Positions 27,538-40,149 of a stretch of DNA of 45,882 nucleotides are shown here, one piece after another. Position 1 is the first letter of the stretch, and every line of letters begins with the position of its first letter. Both the position numbers and the translations under genes were made by a program. The stretch lies in NCBI RefSeq assembly GCF_029255185.1, contig NZ_JAPUVO010000094.1, positions 1 through 45,882 on the forward strand, written 5' to 3'. This stretch comes from Propionivibrio sp. Its GTDB lineage: Bacteria > Pseudomonadota > Gammaproteobacteria > Burkholderiales > Rhodocyclaceae. A model generated the notes under the pieces. It did no database searches. It had not been told where the DNA came from and saw only the letters and a program-made list of their open reading frames with translations.

Positions 27538-28092
27538 ATGAACAAGACTTCATCACTGCCATGGCACAATTTTCTAGTGCTTGCCTTGGCCCTGGCCTCC
27601 GCCACAACGTACGCTCGCAATACAAGATTGCTGTTTCCGATCACTGAAGTGACAAAATCGTCGCGCGCTCAACAGATCATTGGGCAGGACATGCGGCTCT
27701 ATTTTGGGGAGTCTCTACCAAAAGAGATTGGCACGCCCGACATAATCGAAGAGGTTTCGGTAAAGGCTGTGGCAAACCCGGTGCGATCCCCAGGAGCAAA
27801 ATATAACGAAGAAGAATCCGATCAACGAACGTGTCGTGAAGCATTCCGTATGGCCCTGTCGGACCTTAGCCAGAAAAGTCGGAACAAAGGCGGGGATGCG
27901 GTTATAAACATTGTCAGTTTTTATAACAGTGTCGAAATGAGCAGTCCTACAGAATACGAATGTCATTCCGGAATGACACGTTCAGTGGTTGAATTGAAAG
28001 GGCGTATCGTAAAGCTCAATCCGTCCGCTGCCCTCCATAGCGGATCACAGAGGCTACAGAGCAACGCTGGTGAAATTATGCCTCGTCAGTAG
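27538..28092 (+). CDS. Exported protein, related to proteins often mislabelled 'excinuclease ATPase subunit'; 3' end altered
   Basis: The 184-codon frame has a signal peptide (LVLALALASATTYARN, cleavage near ARN) and a body ending SVVELKGRIVKL, with a conserved GGDAVINIVSFY segment and cysteines in QRTCREAF and EYECHSG. The family is known from proteobacteria, without function. The final 24 residues, NPSAALHSGSQ to MPRQ, look unrelated and run toward the ISL3 remnant, so the natural stop near 28020 was probably lost by an insertion or deletion. Confidence 0.65.
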   Translation: MNKTSSLPWHNFLVLALALASATTYARNTRLLFPITEVTKSSRAQQIIGQDMRLYFGESLPKEIGTPDIIEEVSVKAVANPVRSPGAKYNEEESDQRTCREAFRMALSDLSQKSRNKGGDAVINIVSFYNSVEMSSPTEYECHSGMTRSVVELKGRIVKLNPSAALHSGSQRLQSNAGEIMPRQ

Positions 28093-28101
28093 AATCTGTG
28101 G

Positions 28102-28818
28102 ATAAGTTCGGACCGTCGTGAGGTTGTAGCGAAGCAGATCACGCAGGCGAACGCGCTGGTTGCCGGTAAGCTTTGTCTTGCGCTTGAGCAGGCACCATCG
28201 CGACTTATGGAAGACCGGTTCAAAGCCATCCTGGACGAGTCGGCGCGCCTCGGCGGCGCGAACCTCATCGAGCGCGTCATTCATCTTGGCGACGATATGA
28301 AAGCGGCCGAGGATATTGAGGGCGTTAGTACAGCGCTCGCGGATGACGCGCAGGTACGGCTTCCACATGTCGGAGCAGACGAACTCGATCTTCGCGGAAA
28401 GCGCCTTGCCGATCCACAGTAGCCGAGTGCAGTGCCCGTCGATCTGGTAGACCAGGGTCAGGTACTTGTGGCCCTTGGCATACGTCACTTCGTCGACGCC
28501 GATCGCCTGGATCGGTCCCAGGGTTCGCTGTTCGAGGCCCCAGGCAACGCCGTATTCGACGGCCTGGCAGACCTTCTCCCATGACGTATGGAATGACCGT
28601 GCGGTCTCCGTCCACGACAGCTTTCTCGCCCAATGGGCAAGAAACAGCATATAGGCCGTCGTCAGTTGATGCTTGCCGCAACCCCACGGCACCTGCTCGA
28701 CCTTGACGCCGCAGGTCCGACAATCGATCCGGCGCATGCGGTAAAGTAGCAGGACCATGAAACCCCAGAAGGGGACGAATTCGAAACGACGTTGCGCCAG
28801 ATGATCGTAGGTGGGGCC
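28102..28818 (-). pseudogene. ISL3-family transposase remnant
   Basis: The frame from about 28818 to 28102 contains GPTYDHLAQRRFEFVPFWGF, a zinc-finger-type CRTCGVKVE, the DDE-region IGVDEVTYAKGHKYLTLVYQ and LLKRKTKLTGNQRVRLRDLL, all typical of ISL3 transposases. It is cut before the N-terminus at the higBA remnant. The C-terminal 100 or so residues after NLTTVRTY are missing. Annotated starts such as 28758 are only internal methionines. Confidence 0.85.
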
Positions 28819-29010: not shown

Positions 29011-30180
29011 TCAAGGCCAGGCGCGTGCGCCCCAGATCATCCGTTTGGCGACGAAATGACGCAGTGGCGGGTAGAGGTCAAGGGCCAGCAGGCCGAGACC
29101 GCGCGCGCAACGTAGCGGCGCCAGGTCATTGGAAAAGAGGCGCACGATGCTATCCGTGAACGCCATGCTGTAGCGTCGGTCGATCCGGCGACCGCGCGCG
29201 TAGGCGGCTAGCGCTGTCGTGTTGCCGGCATCGTCAGGGCCATGATCGAGCAGCGCTGTGGCAAGTTCGATGGCATCGCGCAGGCCGAGGTTGAAACCCT
29301 GGCCGGAAACCGGGTGCAGGGTTTGTGCGCAGTTGCCGATCCATACCTGACGCGGCCGGGTGATCTGCGACCGGACGCGCAGCGCCAGCGGGAAGCCGGA
29401 ACGCGGGCCGCAACTGACGAAATCGAGGCGCTTGCCAAACTGCTCGCGCAGCGCGGCGAGGAAGGCTTCGTCGCTGTACGCGAGCAGCCGTGCCGCCTTA
29501 TCCGCAGGTGCGGTGAACACCACCGAGTAGTCCTGCCCAAGCGGCAACAGCGCCAGTGGACCATCCGGCGTAAAACGCTCCCAGGCGCGGTTGTGGTGCG
29601 GCGATGCCGGGCGGGCTTGCGCGACGATGGCGTGCTGGTGGTAGTCACGTACCCTGATGTCGGGGTTGCCCTCCGGCGTGCCCTCGGCATGGACGATAAG
29701 TTTGGCCGTGATGCGCATCGCTGCGCCTTGGTGCGCAAGCGTTGCGGTGATCTGATCTTTACTCATTTTGCTGCCGGTTTCGATAGAATCGACGACGCAC
29801 TCGGAGATCAACTGCCCGGGCGCGATGCGTGCGGCGAGAGCGGCGGCGAGGTCGCGGTAGGGCATGACATAACCGAGCGCCGGGGCGCCGTAATCCTTGG
29901 CGGTCAGCAGCGTTCGCCCGAAGCCGCCGCGCTGCGACACATGGATTTCGCTGATCGCTGTGCCGGCACGGGCATTCCAGGCGTGCAGTCCTTCGAGCAG
30001 TTGCTGGCTGCCGTGCGCCAGCGCCAGGGCGCGCGGGTCGTCGGCCCAGGCGTCGCGCCGACGTGCGTCAATCAGCAATACGCGCAGCGTGCTGTCGGCC
30101 AATGACAGCGCCAGCGCCATGCCGACCGGGCCGGCGCCGATGATCAGGACGTCGGTATCGAGTGCGGTGGGGTCAGTCAC
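29011..30180 (-). CDS. ubiH: Ubiquinone biosynthesis FAD-dependent hydroxylase, UbiH-like
   Basis: The 389-residue aromatic hydroxylase has a Rossmann FAD motif GAGPVGMALALS (residues 16-27) and a second FAD motif GNCAQTLHPVSGQGFNLGLRD. Placed next to pepP, as in many proteobacteria, it is probably UbiH, which hydroxylates the benzoquinone ring during ubiquinone synthesis at the inner membrane. Distinguishing UbiH, UbiF or UbiI by sequence alone is not possible. Overlaps pepP by 8 bases. Confidence 0.88.
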   Translation of the reverse strand: MTDPTALDTDVLIIGAGPVGMALALSLADSTLRVLLIDARRRDAWADDPRALALAHGSQQLLEGLHAWNARAGTAISEIHVSQRGGFGRTLLTAKDYGAPALGYVMPYRDLAAALAARIAPGQLISECVVDSIETGSKMSKDQITATLAHQGAAMRITAKLIVHAEGTPEGNPDIRVRDYHQHAIVAQARPASPHHNRAWERFTPDGPLALLPLGQDYSVVFTAPADKAARLLAYSDEAFLAALREQFGKRLDFVSCGPRSGFPLALRVRSQITRPRQVWIGNCAQTLHPVSGQGFNLGLRDAIELATALLDHGPDDAGNTTALAAYARGRRIDRRYSMAFTDSIVRLFSNDLAPLRCARGLGLLALDLYPPLRHFVAKRMIWGARAWP

Positions 30181-31471
30181 GACGCATCACTTCTTCAATC
30201 TCGGCAATGGTTTTCGGCGCACTGGTGTAAACATCGCAGCCATCGGTCGTAACAAACAGGTCATCCTCGATGCGGATGCCGACGCCGTGCAGCTGCTCCG
30301 GAACGCCGGCGGCGGGGCGGATGTAAAGGCCAGGCTCAACGGTCAGCGCCATTCCCGGCTCAAGTCGAACCCAGTCGTCGCCGGCCTTGTAGTCGCCGGC
30401 ATCGTGCACGTCAAGGCCAAGCCAGTGCCCGGTACGGTGCATGTAATAGGGCTTGTAGGCTTCACTTTCGATAGCGCCATCAACGCTGCCGGTCAGTAGC
30501 CCGAGGTCAATCATTCCCTGCACCAGAACGTGCAGCGCGGCTTCGTGGTAGGCAATGAAGGGCGCGCCGGGTTTGACTTCGCTGACTGCCGCGTTCTGTG
30601 CGGCGAGAACGATTTCATAGGCGTCGCGCTGGACGCCGCTGAAGCGGCCGTTGACCGGGAATGTTCGCGTAATGTCAGAGGCATATCCCTGTACTTCGCA
30701 GCCAGCGTCGATGAGTACCAGCGCGTGCTCGGCCAGCAGCTTGTTGTTTTCGATGTAGTGCAGGACGCAGGCATTGTGACCGGCGGCGACGATCGGTGAA
30801 TAAGCATGGCCGTCGGCGCCACGTTTGCGAAATTCGTAGCCAAGCTCGGCTTCGAGTTCGTATTCGACCATGCCTGGACGGCATGCGCGCATGGCGCACG
30901 CATGCCCGGCCGAGGCGATGGCGGCGGCGTGGCGCATGATTTTTGTTTCGTAACTGTCCTTGAGCAGGCGCATGTGGTCGAGCGTTCCTCGCAGGTCGTA
31001 AAGTTCGCCGGGCGCGCGCTTGCCGGCACGGCTTTGCGCGCGCACTGCGTTGAGCGCGCTGACAATTTTTGTGTCCCAGGCGGGGTCGTGGCCAAGGGCG
31101 TGCCATAGTGCGCTGCGATTGGCAATCAGCTCGGGAAGCTTTTGCTCGAAGCTGGTGAAGTCATAGGCTTCGTCAAAACCGAAGGCATCGCGCGCCGCTT
31201 CCGGGCCGTAGCGAAAGCCATCCCAGACTTCGCGTTCTTCATTCTTTTCGCGGCAGAAGAGGATGGCTCTGGGTTCCTTGCCGCCGACCAGAATGATAAC
31301 TGCCTCGGGTTCGGGAAAGCCGGAGAGGTACCAGAAATAGCTGTCAAAACGGTAGGGGTGGTGCGAGTCGCGATTGCGTACGCGTTCTGGCGCGGTCGGA
31401 ATGACGGCGACGCCATCGCCAATCCGTTTGAGCAAGGCATTGCGGCGTGTCGAGTAGGGTTCATGCTTCAT
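30173..31471 (-). CDS. pepP: Xaa-Pro aminopeptidase P
   Basis: The 432-residue M24B metallopeptidase has an N-terminal AMP_N domain and a C-terminal pita-bread domain. Metal ligands appear in LIDAGCEVQGYASDITRTFP (D and D), HRTGHWLGLDVHD (H), LTVEPG (E) and GIRIEDD (E), so the Mn-binding set is intact. It removes N-terminal residues preceding proline. ATGA overlap with the murU-like gene. Confidence 0.94.
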   Translation of the reverse strand: MKHEPYSTRRNALLKRIGDGVAVIPTAPERVRNRDSHHPYRFDSYFWYLSGFPEPEAVIILVGGKEPRAILFCREKNEEREVWDGFRYGPEAARDAFGFDEAYDFTSFEQKLPELIANRSALWHALGHDPAWDTKIVSALNAVRAQSRAGKRAPGELYDLRGTLDHMRLLKDSYETKIMRHAAAIASAGHACAMRACRPGMVEYELEAELGYEFRKRGADGHAYSPIVAAGHNACVLHYIENNKLLAEHALVLIDAGCEVQGYASDITRTFPVNGRFSGVQRDAYEIVLAAQNAAVSEVKPGAPFIAYHEAALHVLVQGMIDLGLLTGSVDGAIESEAYKPYYMHRTGHWLGLDVHDAGDYKAGDDWVRLEPGMALTVEPGLYIRPAAGVPEQLHGVGIRIEDDLFVTTDGCDVYTSAPKTIAEIEEVMRRD

Positions 31472-32160
31472 GATGTTGTCCTCAATTGTGCGCGCACTTC
31501 CTGGTCGAGTTCGGCAAGGCGTTGGGGTGTTCCTACGTCGACCCAGCGGCCGGTGTGGCGTTCCCCGCTGACGGTGCTCCGGGCGATTCCGGCGTCGAGC
31601 AGGGGGCGCATTTTCATGATTGCACCAGGGGGCACACCGGCGAAAAACGCCGGCGAGAAAACGCCGGTGCCGGCGTAGGTCAGCGTCGGGCCGATACCGC
31701 TACTCGCGTATCTGACGGTCTCGCCGTCGAGGCAGAAATCACCGCCGGCATGTTGTGGTGGGTTGTCGACAAAAACCAGATGTGCGGTACGTCCGGCCAG
31801 CGCGTGGGCGCGTTTGAAATCCCAGTCGCACCAGACATCGCCATTGACTACCAGAAACGTGTCGTTGCCAAGCAGGCCCAGGGCCTGGGCAATGCCGCCT
31901 GCGGTTTCCAGGGCGCCTGGCGGTTCCGGCGAGTAGCGGATGTGCAGGCCGAATTGGCTGCCGTCGCGCAATAAGGCTTCGATCTGCTCGCCAAGATGGG
32001 CGTGGTTGATGACGACGTCGTGGAAGCCGCTGGCGGCAAGCCGCTCAAGATGCCAGACGATGAGCGGCTTGCCGCCAGCGCACAGTAGTGGCTTGGGCGT
32101 GCTGTCGGTGAGTGGTCGCATGCGTTCACCGCGGCCTGCGGCGAGAATGAAGGCTTTCAT
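31468..32160 (-). CDS. murU: N-acetylmuramate-1-phosphate uridylyltransferase
   Basis: The 230-residue nucleotidyltransferase opens MKAFILAAGRGERMRPLTDS (signature GxGxRMRPLT), with VNGDVWCDWDF as catalytic Asp region. In the order amgK-murU it makes UDP-MurNAc from MurNAc-1-P, the recycling branch that bypasses MurA and can give intrinsic fosfomycin tolerance (family knowledge). Its start shares one base with the amgK stop. Confidence 0.88.
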   Translation of the reverse strand: MKAFILAAGRGERMRPLTDSTPKPLLCAGGKPLIVWHLERLAASGFHDVVINHAHLGEQIEALLRDGSQFGLHIRYSPEPPGALETAGGIAQALGLLGNDTFLVVNGDVWCDWDFKRAHALAGRTAHLVFVDNPPQHAGGDFCLDGETVRYASSGIGPTLTYAGTGVFSPAFFAGVPPGAIMKMRPLLDAGIARSTVSGERHTGRWVDVGTPQRLAELDQEVRAQLRTTS

Positions 32161-33191
32161 TAGAAGGTATAAGCGGCATCGACCGGCCGCTGTTTGAGCT
32201 GGTCGAGCAGGCGCGCCAGGGGCCGCAGTTCGAGGTAGCGTTCGCAGGTCTGGCGCAGATAGGCCATGACCGTCGGCATGTCTTTGAGATAGCCATCCTT
32301 ACCGTCACGCTGGCTAAGACGGGCAAAAATGCCGAGAACCTTGATCTGGCGTTGCGCACCCATCCATTCGTAATCACGGTAAAAATCGTGAAAGTCGGCA
32401 TGCACCGGCAGCCCGGCCTGGCGCGCCATTTCCCAGTAGCGGATGACGAAGTCGAGTTCTTGTGCCTCTTCCCAGTGGATGTAGGCGTCACGGTAGAGCG
32501 AGGCGAGGTCGTAGGTGATCGGGCCGTAAACCGCATCCTGAAAATCGATGATTCCGGGATTGGTGGGAAATGAGGAAACACCACCTTCAGCACAAACCAT
32601 CAGGTTGCGCGAGTGGTAGTCGCGATGGACGAAAACCTGCGGCTGCGCCAGGTTGTTGGCGAGGATCTTTGCGAATACCGAGCGCAGCGTGGCCTGCTGG
32701 CCGCTGTCAAGCGTGATGCCAAGGTGGCGGGCGACATACCAATCGGGGAACAGATCGAGTTCACGGGAAAGCAGTGCGTGGTCGTAGGCGGGGAGGACGC
32801 CAGGCCGGCTGGCGAGCTGGATGCCGACCAGCGCGGCGTTGGCGTCACGATAGAGCGCGGGCGCGGTGCTGGCGTTGAGGACGTCGAGGTAGGTGGTGTG
32901 GCCGAGGTCGGAGAGGAGCAGAAAGCCCTGCGCCAGGTCTTGGGCATAAACGTCAGGGACGTGCACGCCGGCATCGCGCAAGAGCATTGCAACCTTGAGA
33001 AAAGGGCGGCAATCTTCGTGCTCGGGAGGCGCATCCATGACAATACGGGTGCTGTTATCCGGCAAGGTGAGACGGAAATAACGACGGAAACTGGCGTCGG
33101 TCGATGCCGGCGCCAGGGACAATTCCTGATCTGGGTACTGGGGCAAGAAGTGGCGATCAAGCCAGTCGCGCAGCAGGACAGTACGCGGCAT
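32160..33191 (-). CDS. amgK: N-acetylmuramate/N-acetylglucosamine kinase
   Basis: The 343-residue APH-fold kinase has the catalytic loop HRDYHSRNLMV and metal loop IIDFQDAVYGPITYDLASL, typical of AmgK. With murU it forms the MurNAc recycling pathway, supplying UDP-MurNAc. Divergent from lptD, as in Pseudomonas and many betaproteobacteria; the 125-base gap probably contains both promoters. Confidence 0.9.
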   Translation of the reverse strand: MPRTVLLRDWLDRHFLPQYPDQELSLAPASTDASFRRYFRLTLPDNSTRIVMDAPPEHEDCRPFLKVAMLLRDAGVHVPDVYAQDLAQGFLLLSDLGHTTYLDVLNASTAPALYRDANAALVGIQLASRPGVLPAYDHALLSRELDLFPDWYVARHLGITLDSGQQATLRSVFAKILANNLAQPQVFVHRDYHSRNLMVCAEGGVSSFPTNPGIIDFQDAVYGPITYDLASLYRDAYIHWEEAQELDFVIRYWEMARQAGLPVHADFHDFYRDYEWMGAQRQIKVLGIFARLSQRDGKDGYLKDMPTVMAYLRQTCERYLELRPLARLLDQLKQRPVDAAYTF

Positions 33192-33316
33192 GCCGCTTCT
33201 CCTTGAGCTATGGTGCTAAAATGCGACGATTTTACCACTCGTACCACTTGCCCCGCTGGTCGCTGCGCTGTCGGGAAACAACCCGAGTTCGCTGCATTTT
33301 TTACTGATGGTTCCGG

Positions 33317-36300
33317 ATGAATTTTCCTTCCCGGCGCAAACCGCTCGCGCTGTTCTTCTATTACGGTTTTGTCAGCGTTCTGGTCGGCGGATATGCCGGG
33401 CAGGTACAGGCGCAGGCGCCTGTACCGCTGCGCGTTGACCCGGCACTGCTTGGTCTGCCACCGATAAAGCCGGCAGAAGCGCCCACGCCGGCGGCTTCTC
33501 CGGGCCCGGTCGACAGGCCGCGCAGCGAAGTCATGCCGGTAGAAGCGCCTGTTGTTGAGGCCCGTCCGGTCGAGGCGCAGCCGCAGGCCAGCAAGGCGTC
33601 GGCGCAGGAGATTTCCGCCCGTTCGCCAGCGCCGCAAGCGGTGCCCAGCGTTCCTGTAACTTCGCCGGCGAAACCGCCAGACTCCGTGCCGCAGGCGCCG
33701 AGGCCAACGGTTCAACCTTCGGCTCAGGCCGCTGCGACAGCCTCTTCAGCCACGAATTTTTCCACATTGGCGCCCTTGCGCGTCGACCCGGCGCTGCTCA
33801 GGCAGCCCACGGTTTCGGCGACGACACCCGTCGCTCAAGAAGCTCCCGGCGCGGTCGTCGCCGGTCGACCAGCGACTGTGGCTTCAGCGGCCCACGCCGC
33901 CAGCGGGGCAAAATCGGCTGGTGCTGACAAATCCTGGTTCCGGCGCATCTGGGATCCAGTTGCCGACGCTTATGACAATGGGGCCTGGGAGTTTTATCTG
34001 CCCGTGCACACACACCATTTGCGTAGCGCGTATAGCGCAGAAAAAATCGCCACCTACCAGGAAAGCCCATTGGGTTTCGGTGTGGGAAAAGGGCTTTATG
34101 ACGAGAAGGGGAACTGGCAGGGCGTTTATGCGATGGCTTTCCAGGATTCGCACTTCAAACCAATGTACATCGCCGGTTACGGCTGGAAGGCGATCTGGCG
34201 CCCGGCCGAGGATGTCCGCCTGGGTCTGGGTTATACCGCCGGCCTGATGTCGCGCACCGATATTGCGCACTACATTCCATTCCCGGCCGTCTTGCCGTTG
34301 GCTTCGCTGGCCTACAAGAATCTCAATCTGGAGACGACTTTTGTTCCGGGTGGGAACGGAACAGGCAATATTTTCTTCATCTGGGCCAAGTGGGAGTTGG
34401 GCAAGACTGGAGAAGCCGTCGGCACGCCGGCACGTCCGCCAGCGCCGAGCGAAATCGCCAACACGGCCTTTGGTCAGGCCACCACGCCAGCTCATCAGCG
34501 CGTGCCCTATGGCCCTGCCCTAGAGGTTGGTGCAGGCTCGCGCCTGGCATCGTCAGCACAAACCGTTCCGCCGCAGGTGCCGGCCACCGGTTCGCGCGAC
34601 GAGGAAGAAGTTCCCGATGCCCTGCCGCCGCTGGCCTTGCGTAGCGCGAAGACCATGGTGCCGCCAGCGAAAGACAGTGCTGTGCCGCGACCAGTATTCC
34701 TCAGTGCATTGCGCATGGGCGGGGATGTTGATCGAGAGTTCAATGCCGAGGGTGATGCAGAGTTACGCAAGATTGGTACCGTCGTCAATTCTGATCGCCT
34801 GACCTACTGGCCGATTGACGATGAGATCGAGGCCGAGGGCAATGTGCGCCTTGAACAGGGCGCGGATCGGATTACCGGTCCAAAAATGCGACTCAAGCTG
34901 GAAGACCAAATTGGTTTTTTCGAGCAGCCTTCGTACACCATCAAGCGACAACCGCAAGCCGGGAGCAAGGCGGCCGCGGACAAGGCCTTTGCAACGAACT
35001 TTACCGAACAGTTGCGCAACGACGATTCATGGCTGACCTCAGGCTTCGCCTCGCCGCGCGCTTTCGATATCAGACCCGGCCAGACCACCCTCGACGATTC
35101 GACCCGGATGCCCAAGGGGATGACCGAAGGGCGGGGTGATGCCGACCGTATCGATTTTGAGGGCGAGAATCAGGTCCGGCTGACCAACGGAAGTTATACG
35201 ACCTGCGCGCCGGGAAATAACGATTGGTATCTCAAGGCGAGTGAGCTCAAGCTCGATTACGACCGCGAAGTGGCCGATGGTCGCGATGGCGCGGTGTATT
35301 TCAAAGGTGTGCCGATTATCTATTCGCCATGGCTGTCGTTCTCGCTCAACAACGAACGAAAATCGGGCTTTCTGGCGCCGACTTTTGGCACCAGCAGTAC
35401 CAGCGGCATCGATCTCGCGCTGCCCTACTACTGGAATATCGCGCCGAACATGGATGCGACGATTGCGCCACGGGTATTCACCAAGCGCGGCGTCCAGATC
35501 GGTAGCGAGGTCCGCTATCTCAATACTGCGTTCGGTGGTTTGTATGGATCGCAGGCGCGTTTCGAGCTGCTGCCAGACGATAAATTACGCAACGGCGATA
35601 ACCGATATGCATATTCTCTGATGCATACCCAGGCCACGGCAAATGGGTTTTCCGGGCTGATCAACTATAGCAAGGTATCCGACGACAACTACTACACCGA
35701 CTTGTCGAGCAGAATTGCCAGCACTTCGCAGGTCAATCTTCTGCAACAGGGTATGCTGAGCTATGGCGGCGGTGGCTGGTGGACTGCAACGGCCAATTTT
35801 CAGTCTTACCAGACCCTGCAACCCGATCAGGCCACGGTGAATCCGAATCCGTACCGGATGTTGCCGCAGATCACCTTCACTGCCCGCAAGCCCGATCTGT
35901 ACACGACCGACAGCAGTTTCCTTGGCCAGTACACGGCGTTCACCAAGCCGAAACAGGTGATCAACGGCGTTGTGACGACCGATCCAGACGGACAGCGCAC
36001 CGTGCTCTATCCGCAGGTGGCGCTGCCTTACGTGACGCCGGGCTGGTACGTGACACCCAAGATCGGCGTCAATGCGACCCATTACGCACTGTCGGGTCAG
36101 GCGGCGGGCATCCCGGATGCGATCAGTCGCACCCTGCCGATTTTTAGTGTCGATTCGGGAATGACCTTTGAGCGCTCAAGCAACTGGTTCGGGCGGGATT
36201 ACACGCAGACCCTTGAGCCGCGGCTTTTCTATCTGAACGTTCCGTACAAGAATCAGGACCAGATTCCGATTTTTGATACCGGTCTGGCCGACTTCAATTT

Positions 36301-37039
36301 CGCGCAGATTTTCTCGGAGAACCAGTTTTCCGGATGGGATCGCGTTAGCAACGCCAACCAGCTAACTGCGGCAGCGATGACCCGCTTGCTTGAACCGTCT
36401 ACCGGCAACGAAATCATGCGCGCGATGCTCGGGCAACGTTTCTATTTTACGCAGAACAGGGTGAAACTCCCTGGCGCCGCGCCTGATAGCGGAAAGTGGG
36501 ACAAATCCGATTTTCTGGCCGCCTTTAGTGGGCAACTATTGCCCAGGGTCTATGCCGATACCGCAGTGCAGTACAACCTGAGTGATCAACAGGTCAAGCG
36601 CTATTCGATCGGGACGCGCTATCAGCCTGAACCGGGCAAGGTGCTCAACCTGGCGTATCGCTACAATCGTGATTCGAATGCACCAATTGACCAGATCGAT
36701 CTGTCCGGGCAGTGGCCTATCACGGGAGGCTGGCATGCTGTTGGCCGGATCAACTACTCGTTCAAGGATGATGCAAGCAATACCTCGACCAGCAGCCAGG
36801 GGGGGCGTCTTATCGAGTCGATCGGCGGTCTGGAATACAACGGCGGTTGCTGGGTAGTGCGCGGCGTTATCCAGCGCATCGCCCTGACCCAGGCGAGTAA
36901 CTCAACGGGATTTTTCATCCAGCTTGAACTCAGTGATTTTTCGCGCATCGGCTCCAATCCGCTGAATCTTCTCAAACGCAATATTCAGGGTTACAGCCTG
37001 ATCAATCAGCCAACGGCCGACCCTGTCTTTGGTCAATAG
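33317..37039 (+). CDS. lptD: PagP-LptD fusion: LPS assembly outer-membrane protein with N-terminal lipid A palmitoyltransferase domain
   Basis: A single open frame of 1240 residues; E. coli LptD has 784. Order: signal peptide (residues 1-32, cleavage after VQAQA), Pro/Ala-rich linker (33-205) in which PLRVDPALL occurs twice (37-45, 153-161), PagP domain (about 206-361), second Pro-rich linker (362-460), LptD jellyroll (about 463-545) and C-terminal barrel to FGQ. PagP's catalytic histidine is H234 (in HTHHLRSAYS) and the Asp-Ser pair D277-S278 (in YAMAFQDSHF). LptD keeps only two cysteines, C630 and C1178, one possible disulfide; E. coli has four. It is the first gene of the lptD-surA-pdxA-rsmA operon. 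Promoter not identified. Confidence 0.93.
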   Translation: MNFPSRRKPLALFFYYGFVSVLVGGYAGQVQAQAPVPLRVDPALLGLPPIKPAEAPTPAASPGPVDRPRSEVMPVEAPVVEARPVEAQPQASKASAQEISARSPAPQAVPSVPVTSPAKPPDSVPQAPRPTVQPSAQAAATASSATNFSTLAPLRVDPALLRQPTVSATTPVAQEAPGAVVAGRPATVASAAHAASGAKSAGADKSWFRRIWDPVADAYDNGAWEFYLPVHTHHLRSAYSAEKIATYQESPLGFGVGKGLYDEKGNWQGVYAMAFQDSHFKPMYIAGYGWKAIWRPAEDVRLGLGYTAGLMSRTDIAHYIPFPAVLPLASLAYKNLNLETTFVPGGNGTGNIFFIWAKWELGKTGEAVGTPARPPAPSEIANTAFGQATTPAHQRVPYGPALEVGAGSRLASSAQTVPPQVPATGSRDEEEVPDALPPLALRSAKTMVPPAKDSAVPRPVFLSALRMGGDVDREFNAEGDAELRKIGTVVNSDRLTYWPIDDEIEAEGNVRLEQGADRITGPKMRLKLEDQIGFFEQPSYTIKRQPQAGSKAAADKAFATNFTEQLRNDDSWLTSGFASPRAFDIRPGQTTLDDSTRMPKGMTEGRGDADRIDFEGENQVRLTNGSYTTCAPGNNDWYLKASELKLDYDREVADGRDGAVYFKGVPIIYSPWLSFSLNNERKSGFLAPTFGTSSTSGIDLALPYYWNIAPNMDATIAPRVFTKRGVQIGSEVRYLNTAFGGLYGSQARFELLPDDKLRNGDNRYAYSLMHTQATANGFSGLINYSKVSDDNYYTDLSSRIASTSQVNLLQQGMLSYGGGGWWTATANFQSYQTLQPDQATVNPNPYRMLPQITFTARKPDLYTTDSSFLGQYTAFTKPKQVINGVVTTDPDGQRTVLYPQVALPYVTPGWYVTPKIGVNATHYALSGQAAGIPDAISRTLPIFSVDSGMTFERSSNWFGRDYTQTLEPRLFYLNVPYKNQDQIPIFDTGLADFNFAQIFSENQFSGWDRVSNANQLTAAAMTRLLEPSTGNEIMRAMLGQRFYFTQNRVKLPGAAPDSGKWDKSDFLAAFSGQLLPRVYADTAVQYNLSDQQVKRYSIGTRYQPEPGKVLNLAYRYNRDSNAPIDQIDLSGQWPITGGWHAVGRINYSFKDDASNTSTSSQGGRLIESIGGLEYNGGCWVVRGVIQRIALTQASNSTGFFIQLELSDFSRIGSNPLNLLKRNIQGYSLINQPTADPVFGQ
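33932..34399 (+). other. PagP (lipid A palmitoyltransferase) domain inside lptD
   Basis: Codons 206-361 encode a stretch matching PagP along its length. It begins with an amphipathic start (SWFRRIWDPVADAYDNG), then HTHHLRSAYSAEKI, GKGLYDEKGNWQGVYAMAF with QDS, IAGYGWKAIWRP, LGLGYTAGL, YIPFPAVLPLASLAY and a closing NIFFIWAKWEL. E. coli PagP has the same order and spacing, with catalytic H33, D76 and S77 (mature numbering). About 155 residues fits an eight-stranded barrel with both ends in the periplasm, so it can be joined to the LptD jellyroll. Confidence 0.93.
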
Positions 37040-37051
37040 AAGGTGTTACGC

Positions 37052-38365
37052 ATGACGCTACTGCTTCGTACTCTGGTTCTCTTCCTGTGTTCCGTCGGAC
37101 TGGTTTCGGCGCAATCACCACAACGTCAGACCAACAATGCGCCCCTGCCGGCTGACCGCATTGTTGCCGTCGTCAATGACGAAGTGATTACCCTGCACGA
37201 GTTGCGCACGCGCCTTGAACTGGCTCTCCAGCAACTACAGCGGCAGGGTACGCCATTGCCTGCGCGCGATGTGCTTGAGCGGCAGATGCTCGAACGTCTG
37301 GTCATGGACAAGGTTCAGTTGCAGCATGCGCGGGATATCGGTCTGCGGATTGACGATACGCAACTCGATCAGGCGCTACAGCGCATTGCCGCCAGCAACA
37401 AGATGTCGCTCACCCAGTTTCGCGAGGCGCTGCAAAAAGACGGTATTGCCTTCGTGAAGTTCCGTGAGGAAATTCGCGAAGAAATGGTCATTGCGCGGGT
37501 TCGCGAGCGTGAAGTGGAAAACAAAATTGTCATATCGGAAGGCGAGATCGACAACTATCTCTCCGATGATTCGGCCAAGGGCAGCGGACGTGAAGAGTAC
37601 GAGGTCGCCCATATTCTTCTGCGCACTCCCGAATCGGCGAGCCCGGAGCAGATTCAGCGGCTCAAGGCCAAGGCGGATCAGATTTTTGACCGGATCGGGA
37701 AGGGCGACGATTTCTCGCAGCTTGCGGCGTCCTTTTCCGATGCGCCGGATGGCTTGCAGGGTGGAAATCTGGGGCTGCGCCAACTTAATCGTCTGCCCGC
37801 CATTTTTTCGGAAATTGTCGTCAAACTCAATGTTGGTGAGGTGGCGCCGATTCTGCGCAGCCCCAACGGTTTCCATATCGTCAAACTGGTTTCAAAGCGG
37901 GGCGGGGCGGTGGCGACTGCGGTTCAGCAAACGCATGTCCGGCATATTCTGATCAAGGTCAACGAAGTGGTTTCGGAATCCGATGCCAAACATAAACTGA
38001 CCGGTCTGTATGAACGAATCAAGAATGGCTTCAGTTTTGCTGAACTGGCCAAGCTCTTTTCGCAGGATGGTTCGGCGTCCAAGGGTGGCGATCTTGGCTG
38101 GATCTATCCCGGCGATACGGTGCCTGAGTTCGAGCGGGTGATGAACCAGTTGCAACCTGGTGAACTGAGTCAGCCTATCCAGTCGCCGTTTGGTTATCAC
38201 CTGATCGAAGTGCTTGAGCGACGCGTTCAGGACGCCTCGGCTGACCGTCAGCGCTCGGCAGCACGCCAGGTCTTGCGCGAACGCAAAATGGATGAGGCGT
38301 ATCAGGACTGGTTGCGTCAGGCGCGCGACCGCGCCTACGTCGAGCTGCGCCTCGAAGAGCGCTAA
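37052..38365 (+). CDS. surA: Periplasmic chaperone and peptidyl-prolyl isomerase SurA
   Basis: The 437-residue protein has a signal peptide (LLRTLVLFLCSVGLVSAQ), a SurA N-terminal chaperone domain (ADRIVAVVNDEVITLHELR) and two parvulin domains (EYEVAHILLRTPE and THVRHILIKVNEV, each with GGDLG/GGNLG). It delivers nascent outer-membrane proteins, notably LptD, to BAM. ATG 37052 is chosen because AGAAGG ends 8 bases upstream; a GTG at 37043 is possible. It lies 12 bases after the lptD stop. Confidence 0.96.
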   Translation: MTLLLRTLVLFLCSVGLVSAQSPQRQTNNAPLPADRIVAVVNDEVITLHELRTRLELALQQLQRQGTPLPARDVLERQMLERLVMDKVQLQHARDIGLRIDDTQLDQALQRIAASNKMSLTQFREALQKDGIAFVKFREEIREEMVIARVREREVENKIVISEGEIDNYLSDDSAKGSGREEYEVAHILLRTPESASPEQIQRLKAKADQIFDRIGKGDDFSQLAASFSDAPDGLQGGNLGLRQLNRLPAIFSEIVVKLNVGEVAPILRSPNGFHIVKLVSKRGGAVATAVQQTHVRHILIKVNEVVSESDAKHKLTGLYERIKNGFSFAELAKLFSQDGSASKGGDLGWIYPGDTVPEFERVMNQLQPGELSQPIQSPFGYHLIEVLERRVQDASADRQRSAARQVLRERKMDEAYQDWLRQARDRAYVELRLEER

Positions 38366-38368
38366 GCC

Positions 38369-39373
38369 ATGCCTCCGGCGATCTTGCCAACCATCGCCGT
38401 CACCTCGGGTGAGCCAGCCGGGATTGGCCCGGAAATCTGCTTGCGTCTCTTTGAGCGTGCTTTGGGAACGCTCCCGGCACACCTGCTAGTCCTTGCCGAT
38501 CGAGAGCTTATGGCCGAACGGGCGCAGGTGGTCAATTTCCACGGGCAACTGCGCGACTGGACGCCCGGTTTGCCAGCAGCCCCGGGAACGCTCGACATTC
38601 TGCATAGTCCTCTGGTCATCACTTCGCATCCCGGTCAGCTTGATCCGGCCAATTCACCTTATGTGCTGCATTTGCTCGATCGGGCTATTGAAGGGTGTCG
38701 CTCAGGCGCGTTTGCAGCAATGGTCACAGCACCGGTGCATAAAGGGGTGATCAACGATGCCGGTGTGGGCTTTACGGGACATACCGAGTATCTGGCCGAG
38801 AAAACCGCGACTCCACGGGTGGTGATGATGCTCGTCGGCGGCGGCCTGAGGGTTGCGCTGGCGACTACCCATTTGCCGCTGAAGGACGTATCCGCAGCCG
38901 TGACGCAGGAATCACTTGAACAGACACTGCGTATACTGCATGCCGATCTGGGCAGGAAATACGGCATCTCCAGCCCGCGCATACTGGTCGCTGGGCTTAA
39001 TCCACATGCCGGTGAGGGGGGCTATCTTGGGCGTGAGGAAATCGAGGTTATTACGCCGGTGCTTGATCGTCTGCGTGCCGAGGGCATGGCGCTGATCGGC
39101 CCCTTGCCCGCCGACACGATGTTCACTCCACCGCTGCTGGCGCAGGGGGATTGCGTGCTGGCCATGTACCACGATCAGGGGTTGACGGCGCTCAAGTACG
39201 CCAGCTTCGGTAATGGCATCAACGTGACGCTTGGCCTGCCGATCATCCGTACCTCGGTTGACCACGGTACGGCGCTCGAATTGGCGGGCACCGGTCGCGC
39301 TGACCCGGGCAGCCTCTTCGTCGCCGTCGACCAGGCCATCGAGATGGTGCAACGGGCAGGATTGAGCCGATGA
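38369..39373 (+). CDS. pdxA: 4-hydroxythreonine-4-phosphate dehydrogenase
   Basis: The 334-residue enzyme oxidises 4-phosphohydroxythreonine in pyridoxal phosphate synthesis. Family motifs [12 protein letters not shown] at the N-terminus, [18 protein letters not shown] and [15 protein letters not shown] (metal-binding His/Asp) are all present. It is 3 bases from surA and overlaps rsmA (ATGA). Confidence 0.96.
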
Positions 39374-40149
39374 GCAAACATATTGCGCGCAAGCGCTTTG
39401 GGCAGAATTTTCTGATTGACTATCAGGTGATCGCCGACATCGTTAATGCCGTTGCGCCAAAGCGCGGCGATTGTGTCGTCGAGATCGGTCCCGGGCTCGG
39501 TGCGCTGACCGACCCGCTACTGAACAGACTGGACCATCTGCACGTCATCGAGATTGATCGCGATATCATCGCTCGTCTGAAGCCACGTTATTCGCCTGAA
39601 AAGCTCACCATCCACGAAGGCGACGCGCTGAATTTTGATTTTGCGTCGCTGCTTGATGATTCTGGCAGCCGACTGCACGTGGTCGGCAATCTGCCCTACA
39701 ACATTTCGACCCCGCTGCTTTTTCACCTGGCCAGCTTTGCCAACGACGTTTACGACATGCACTTCATGTTGCAGAAAGAAGTCGTCGAACGCATGGTTGC
39801 CGAGCCGGGAAGCTCGGATTTCGGCCGCCTGTCGGTAATGCTTCAATACCGTTTTGTCATGGACTGGCTGCGTGATGTGCCGCCGGAGTCCTTTGCGCCA
39901 GCGCCGAAGGTTGACTCGGCCGTGGTGCGGTTGATTCCCCGTCCGCCCGAGGAACTTTTGGCAAAGGACGAAGCCAAGTTTGCGGCGCTAGTGTCGGCGG
40001 CGTTCGCGCAGCGACGCAAGATGCTGCGCAACAACCTCAAGGGAATTCTTGGCGGTCTTGGTTTTGAGCAGCTCGGCATCTCCCCGACGGCGCGGGCGGA
40101 GGAGTTGTCGGTTGCCGACTACATTCGTGTTGCCAACACGCTGCAATGA
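39370..40149 (+). CDS. rsmA: 16S rRNA (adenine1518/1519-N6)-dimethyltransferase
   Basis: The 259-residue KsgA methyltransferase has [11 protein letters not shown] at the N-terminus, SAM motif [12 protein letters not shown], and the catalytic NLPYNIS motif. It dimethylates two adjacent adenosines in helix 45 of 16S rRNA. Last gene of the lptD operon. Confidence 0.97.

Follow-up and report, generated by a model that had tools for sequence, protein, structure and literature searches.

The window analysed here is the whole stretch of 45,882 nucleotides of contig NZ_JAPUVO010000094.1 (assembly GCF_029255185.1) from a Propionivibrio species. The subject is one gene within it, a reading frame on the plus strand at 33317-37039 that joins the lipid A palmitoyltransferase PagP to the lipopolysaccharide (LPS) assembly protein LptD in a single chain of 1240 residues. 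The frame starts with ATG, has its sole stop codon at its end, is open throughout its 1240 codons, and encodes, in order, a probable signal peptide, a linker rich in proline and alanine (Pro/Ala-rich), a complete PagP, a second linker and a complete LptD. A first-pass annotation, made from the sequence alone, had described an uninterrupted frame, two Pro/Ala-rich linkers around PagP and a complete LptD beyond them; the translation reveals no frame break, the residue composition agrees for both linkers, and a profile search of the protein yields Pfam matches above the cut-offs for both PagP and LptD. The fusion is real, shared and conserved--the same join occurs in 14 distinct genomes belonging to three genera of one family--so that the original observation is confirmed. 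The gene and its parts are:

33317..37039, plus strand: fused pagP-lptD gene, 1240 residues (open reading frame translation, Pfam, NCBIfam)
33317..33415, plus strand: probable Sec signal peptide, residues 1-33, with RRK, a hydrophobic run and an AxA-like site (read by eye)
33416..33931, plus strand: linker 1, residues 34-205, 68% Pro, Ala, Ser, Thr or Val (composition)
33428..33463, plus strand: first motif copy in linker 1, LRVDPALLGLPP, residues 38-49 (motif search)
33776..33799, plus strand: second motif copy in linker 1, LRVDPALL, residues 154-161 (motif search)
33932..34399, plus strand: PagP domain, residues 206-361, N-terminal helix and eight strands (profiles, alignment, model)
34016..34018, plus strand: His234, aligned with the active-site His of E. 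coli PagP (alignment)
34145..34150, plus strand: Asp277-Ser278, aligned with the active-site Asp-Ser of E. coli PagP (alignment)
34400..34432, plus strand: junction GKTGEAVGTPA, residues 362-372 (alignment of fused and stand-alone proteins)
34400..34702, plus strand: linker 2, residues 362-462, 57% Pro, Ala, Ser, Thr or Val (composition, full-length model)
34784..35269, plus strand: LptD_N, the periplasmic LptA-like domain, residues 490-651, containing Cys630 (Pfam)
35270..37036, plus strand: LptD barrel region, residues 652-1240, containing Cys1178 (Pfam, PDB sequence search)

The PagP assignment rests on several independent kinds of comparison. The Pfam PagP profile (PF07017) matches residues 216-358 over nearly its whole length (positions 3-144 of 144; E value 1.4e-53; 180.7 bits, cut-off 24), the NCBIfam PagP equivalog scores 195.5 bits (cut-off 155), and a PDB sequence search with this part recovers E. 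coli PagP at E 9e-36; the domain first proposed for residues 206-361 is thus well founded. H234, D277 and S278, which we take to be the PagP catalytic residues, are all present, as the first-pass annotation had held, and line up with E. coli PagP. Modelled alone, with 25 sequences, the region forms a helix and eight strands at a predicted local distance difference test score (pLDDT) of 90.3; in a Foldseek search with this model the first three ranks are PagP, the best PDB match being 3gp6 (E 1.9e-15). A profile search of the window's genome found a single PagP match, which lies inside the fused gene, and no second, stand-alone pagP.

The remainder of the chain is LptD. PF04453 matches residues 761-1139 (E 1.2e-100; 337.9 bits, cut-off 22.4), LptD_N (PF03968) matches residues 490-651 (E 4e-6; 27.5 bits, cut-off 20.4), LptD_2 is also matched, and a PDB sequence search returns LptD chains, with 7omm the best (E 3.9e-107). 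Two NCBIfam LptD equivalogs match strongly yet below their cut-offs (362.2 of 683 and 338.5 of 944 bits), these being the naming cut-offs of two whole-length models, which do not define the protein. The fused protein has just two cysteines, Cys630 in the periplasmic part and Cys1178 in the barrel, a possible pair between these two parts; E. coli LptD has four. The same genome encodes LptE (69.9 bits, cut-off 23), and a profile search of it found no second LptD, the one match again lying inside the fused gene.

The two linkers are set off from the domains by composition, their content of Pro, Ala, Ser, Thr and Val (68% and 57%) contrasting with 30-33% in the domains. Linker 2 has the lowest pLDDT of the full-length model, about 25, and is probably disordered. 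Among 12 fused proteins for which its length was sought, 10 could be measured; nine have a linker 2 of 96-123 residues and one (G025) has 56. In P. dicarboxylicus (G277) and a close relative (G105) linker 1 contains runs of QAT repeats (loci L036 and L037), and the P. dicarboxylicus contig terminates inside such a repeat. A promoter scan of 33150-37200 predicted none within the gene; it carries little weight, because none was predicted ahead of the gene either.

Carriers of the fusion include Propionivibrio dicarboxylicus DSM 5885, Candidatus P. aalborgensis, Rhodocyclus tenuis 2761, R. gracilis DSM 110, R. purpureus DSM 168 and metagenome bins. Within the genus of the window's genome, PagP is matched in 10 of 28 genomes and in every one of them is joined to LptD; genus g59 (3 of 3 genomes) and genus g26 (1 of 1) are likewise fused. 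Mapping the spread of the fusion, as had been proposed, thus gives 10 carriers in the genus and 14 overall rather than wide conservation, 18 of the 28 genomes having no PagP match. Across the family sample PagP is matched in 44 of 297 genomes, 43 of them above the cut-off, and 8 of these are fused. Beyond the family, open-frame length served as the measure: apart from the window's genome, included in every sample, no PagP frame of LptD size occurs in the order (58 of 399 genomes with PagP), class (15 of 369) or phylum (25 of 398) sample, where the longest other PagP frame has 539 residues. No PagP match at all was obtained in a clade of small-genome members of the genus (2.2-2.7 Mb; G195, G306 and G235, loci L061, L070 and L073).

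Sequence conservation and selection both bear on whether the PagP domain still functions. The His, Asp and Ser are invariant in the alignment of all 14 fused PagPs, as are four prolines aligned with positions that we take to be those of the lateral-access gate. For eight pairs, chosen by the authors from 66 possible among 12 fused genes, the ratio of nonsynonymous to synonymous substitution rates (dN/dS) is 0.03-0.21 for PagP, 0.07-0.20 for the LptD barrel, 0.05-0.29 for the LptD periplasmic part (defined in 6 of 8 pairs) and 0.16-0.67 for the linkers where defined, all of these being rough ratios because dS exceeds 1 in many comparisons. Judged by these values the PagP domain is constrained about like the LptD barrel, that is, by purifying selection. 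A degenerate PagP was considered and is thought unlikely, given the residue conservation together with this selection.

The neighbourhood of the fused gene, in which the names amgK, murU and ubiH are ones we presume for three of the genes, is as follows:

37043..38365, plus strand: surA
38369..39373, plus strand: pdxA
39370..40149, plus strand: rsmA (rRNA adenine dimethylase)
32160..33191, minus strand: amgK-like kinase (APH family), first gene of the divergent block
31468..32160, minus strand: murU-like nucleotidyltransferase
30173..31471, minus strand: pepP-like aminopeptidase P
29011..30180, minus strand: ubiH-like FAD monooxygenase
28054..28758, minus strand: ISL3-type transposase gene, Pfam match to 1-149 of 240

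Downstream, the window thus has the order lptD-surA-pdxA-rsmA. Upstream, the transposase gene adjoins the ubiH-like gene at the place where relatives have dusB-purH-purD, so that the block is rearranged in the window. Within the family, that stretch is also the usual site of stand-alone pagP. The family sample contains 35 such genes above the cut-off, and 28 were examined: 22 lie between purH and purD, three (G202, G135, G064) lie beside one of the two with a contig end on the opposite side, and three (G246, G125, G116) are sited elsewhere. In 12 stretches that contain both genes (11 of the 22, plus G064), pagP and lptD are divergently oriented, 7.1-10.5 kb apart, in the order lptD, amgK, murU, pepP, ubiH, dusB, purH, pagP, purD. 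This proximity is not universal, since in G042 and G122 the pagP-bearing slot is far from lptD. The slot lacks pagP in all eight fused genomes examined, with purH and purD adjacent in seven and 1.85 kb apart in R. purpureus (G144), and it is likewise empty in the three unfused, PagP-less Propionivibrio examined. The steady placement of stand-alone pagP next to purH and purD (L040, L044-L046, L050, L051, L203-L212, L237, L238 and others) is a curious link between a lipid A palmitoylation gene and purine genes.

How often the fusion arose was judged from the junction and from trees whose rows (65 LptD, 53 PagP) were chosen by the authors among the loci, with the G303 fragment left outside the LptD tree. 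The junction pattern GK.....GTP (GK, five residues, GTP) is present in all 14 fused genomes and in none of 12 aligned stand-alone relatives; in alignment A2 the corresponding columns G163, K164, G170, T171 and P172 are invariant in all 13 rows. The 12 stand-alone PagPs of alignment A3 mostly stop at or near the last strand (nine), the other three (L145, L146, L150) having unrelated tails. In the PagP tree the 14 fused domains form one clade among 53 rows, with support of 55 by bootstrap and 94 by the Shimodaira-Hasegawa-like approximate likelihood ratio test (SH-aLRT), and in 58% of bootstrap trees a single change accounts for the fusion; the bootstrap support for a single clade is weak. Because the junction is common to all fused proteins and absent from the 12 aligned stand-alone ones, and because the fused PagPs group together, a single origin is likely.

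The LptD tree suggests a subsequent history of loss. There the fused label needs five changes, at least four by the starred branches. Within Propionivibrio the window's genome and G302 split off first, and 15 unfused members form inner clades of 12 and 3, which would fit an early gain followed by two losses; the remaining changes fall on G031/G090 and G125. G216, which lies deepest in the clade of 12, keeps a linker resembling the one that follows PagP in fused proteins (PYG ... RDEEEVPD), with PagP itself missing in frame, as is expected of PagP loss. Since unfused Propionivibrio may themselves have lost the domain, more distant unfused LptDs are the better guide to the state before fusion. 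Three of these (G020, G032, G042) carry two or three copies of a motif of the LRVDPALLGLPP type, located in a Pro/Ala-rich extension in the two sequences inspected (G020 and G032); PagP therefore seems to have entered an LptD extension that already existed. With variants allowed, 31 of 39 LptD frames, fused or not, have one to three copies of the motif in their N-terminal extension; it may be a binding motif. A Pfam search of nine long unfused LptD frames (1110-1448 residues) found LptD families alone and no other domain.

As to where the inserted PagP came from, gene order makes a local move of pagP plausible. The tree of PagP speaks against a simple transfer from the purH-purD slot into lptD: a clade of the fused PagPs plus the G031 PagP--a group named after inspection of the tree--fails the approximately unbiased (AU) test at p 0.0003, and the fused PagPs group apart from that of G031, whose LptD is a close relative. 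Given the rejection of this clade, acquisition of PagP from elsewhere, or its later replacement in G031, is as possible as a local move. Two further candidates were set aside, namely a clade of 13 fused PagPs without G025 and with L101 and L103 (rejected, p 0.03) and the G031 stand-alone PagP as a protein of 593 residues, whose extra part overlaps purH in another frame.

PagP transfers palmitate from phospholipid to lipid A and serves as an indicator of phospholipid exposure in the outer membrane (PMC11537012). That source gives inner-leaflet phospholipid as the donor; here, as in the first-pass annotation, the donor is taken to lie in the outer leaflet. LptD and LptE insert LPS via a lateral opening (PMC4353691). 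Both ends of PagP face the periplasm, as does the N-terminal domain of LptD, so that an order of PagP followed by LptD is possible.

The favoured reading is that acylation occurs locally and constitutively at the LPS exit, with plain co-expression as the main rival. One exported polypeptide would comprise two barrels, that of PagP with its eight strands and that of LptD, with about 100 residues of flexible linker between them, and the barrel assembly machinery (BAM) would fold both. A flexible chain of 100 residues has an estimated root-mean-square span of roughly 6-8 nm, so that PagP should remain beside its own LptD, perhaps within roughly 10 nm and at a 1:1 ratio, and would be made whenever LptD is made. 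Using outer-leaflet phospholipid present at the exit site, it would add palmitate to lipid A, or to phosphatidylglycerol, while LPS is leaving LptD, and acylation would be constitutive and local instead of stress-induced and scattered. The first-pass annotation had likewise suggested palmitoylation at the exit site, or use there of displaced phospholipid; its interpretation is supported in part, namely for the conserved join of two complete domains, the active-site residues kept in all 14 fused PagPs and the lack of a second PagP match in the window's genome. That an active acyltransferase is in this way tethered to the LPS exit site, as one of two outer-membrane barrels in a single exported chain, is considered somewhat better than an even prospect. 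A stronger version, in which export and acylation are physically coupled in one machine and PagP also removes outer-leaflet phospholipid at the insertion site, is put forward tentatively, at a little less than even likelihood.

Several observations weigh against this reading. The coupling is not essential, because LptD is matched in 16 of the 18 genomes of the genus without a PagP match (a contig end cuts the LptD gene in two of them, G303 and G308). With 13 sequences, the full-length model reaches a pLDDT of only 46.8 and a predicted template modelling score (pTM) of 0.28, so that barrel contact or arrangement cannot be read from it, and the high dS values leave many of the selection ratios rough. 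In some of the fused proteins the chain added is perhaps not palmitate: Gly289 of the window protein aligns with E. coli Gly88, presumably the floor of the acyl-chain ruler, and the residue at this position (column 84 of alignment A1) is Gly in 9 of the 14 fused PagPs, including that of the window, and Ala, Thr, Gln, Ser and Ser in the other five, which may therefore add a different chain. Replacement of the ruler Gly would be expected to shorten the chain that is added. For the fused protein, no results on activity, lipid A or protein size were found. There is reportedly older chemical work on the lipid A of strain 2761. For Rhodocyclus LPS, the accessible part of one source reports sugars and dominant C16 fatty acids, lipid A acyl chains not being among the items given there (PMC8954225).

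The alternative that fares best supposes that PagP and LptD are both active and uncoupled in space and time, the join fixing only co-expression and stoichiometry and PagP using any outer-leaflet phospholipid within reach. The drifting sequence of the Pro/Ala-rich linkers and the very low model confidence of linker 2 suit it, as do the lack of any readable barrel contact in the model and the repeated loss of the PagP domain, with lptD retained, that the LptD tree suggests; however, the length of linker 2 is fairly steady and the junction's five invariant columns exceed what a free spacer needs, and on balance we regard it as rather unlikely. Cleavage of the chain within a linker after export would instead release separate PagP and LptD, reducing the fusion to a device for shared secretion and dosage. 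Protease access is conceivable, both linkers being Pro/Ala-rich and the second seemingly disordered, and little counts against cleavage; the point that separately translated LptD would be left without a signal peptide is irrelevant to it. Cleavage is nonetheless judged improbable. A PagP part that no longer transfers acyl chains and serves instead in structure or sensing would accord with the varied ruler position (Gly, Ala, Thr, Gln, Ser), but the catalytic triplet and gate prolines conserved throughout, under purifying selection, make this very improbable. An assembly error or frameshift artefact, for which one might cite the three genomes of 14 in which a contig end cuts the gene (G277, G312 and G297, the last with a piece on each of two contigs), is rejected, because independent genomes carry the same join, 11 of the 14 hold the whole frame within a contig, and the junction sequence is the same in all. 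On none of the three points that the first-pass annotation had regarded as decisive--a break in the frame, a missing PagP profile match, absence of the segment from all close relatives--was an adverse result found.

If local acylation at the exit is correct, there is an acylation step at the site where LPS emerges, which suggests that phospholipid reaches the outer leaflet there, and delivery and modification of lipopolysaccharide may share one spot. Because the fusion is carried by named strains (Rhodocyclus, P. dicarboxylicus) and same-genus relatives without the PagP domain provide natural controls, exposure of outer-leaflet phospholipid at the site of LPS insertion is open to test.

The first-pass annotation knew of no described PagP-LptD fusion; likewise none was found in the open-access literature, among the matches listed and as judged by the openings of abstracts, subscription papers and InterPro lying outside that search. 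Automatic domain databases have likely listed it before, and the fusion is rated here as a new architecture of known families. The PagP part resembles E. coli PagP (PF07017; PDB 3gp6, 1thq) over the whole domain, in its active-site residues and in its helix and eight strands, yet it is an internal domain of another outer-membrane protein, has no signal peptide of its own, and no separate gene for it was found in the genome. The LptD part resembles known LptD (PF04453, PF03968; PDB 7omm, 4q35) in its periplasmic domain, barrel, single copy, gene order with surA, pdxA and rsmA, and accompanying LptE, but differs in its scores below the NCBIfam equivalog cut-offs and in a long Pro/Ala-rich N-terminal extension that holds a second barrel. 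The family's stand-alone pagP encodes a homologous enzyme, often 7.1-10.5 kb from lptD on the opposite strand, but as a separate short gene without the GK.....GTP junction. To our knowledge, few proteins combine two outer-membrane barrels in one chain; here one of the two inserts LPS and the other is a lipid A acyltransferase, usually a protein on its own. The nearest parallel comes from another family of the order (f20), where all seven PagP matches in the order sample (L254-L260; genomes G332, G639, G554, G665, G459, G421 and G378) continue in frame into a C-terminal barrel, with OMP_b-brl above its Pfam cut-off in six and slightly below it in L259. There too PagP is joined to a second outer-membrane barrel, the partner being a small one of the OMP_b-brl type rather than LptD; PagP may thus be prone to joining other outer-membrane barrels.

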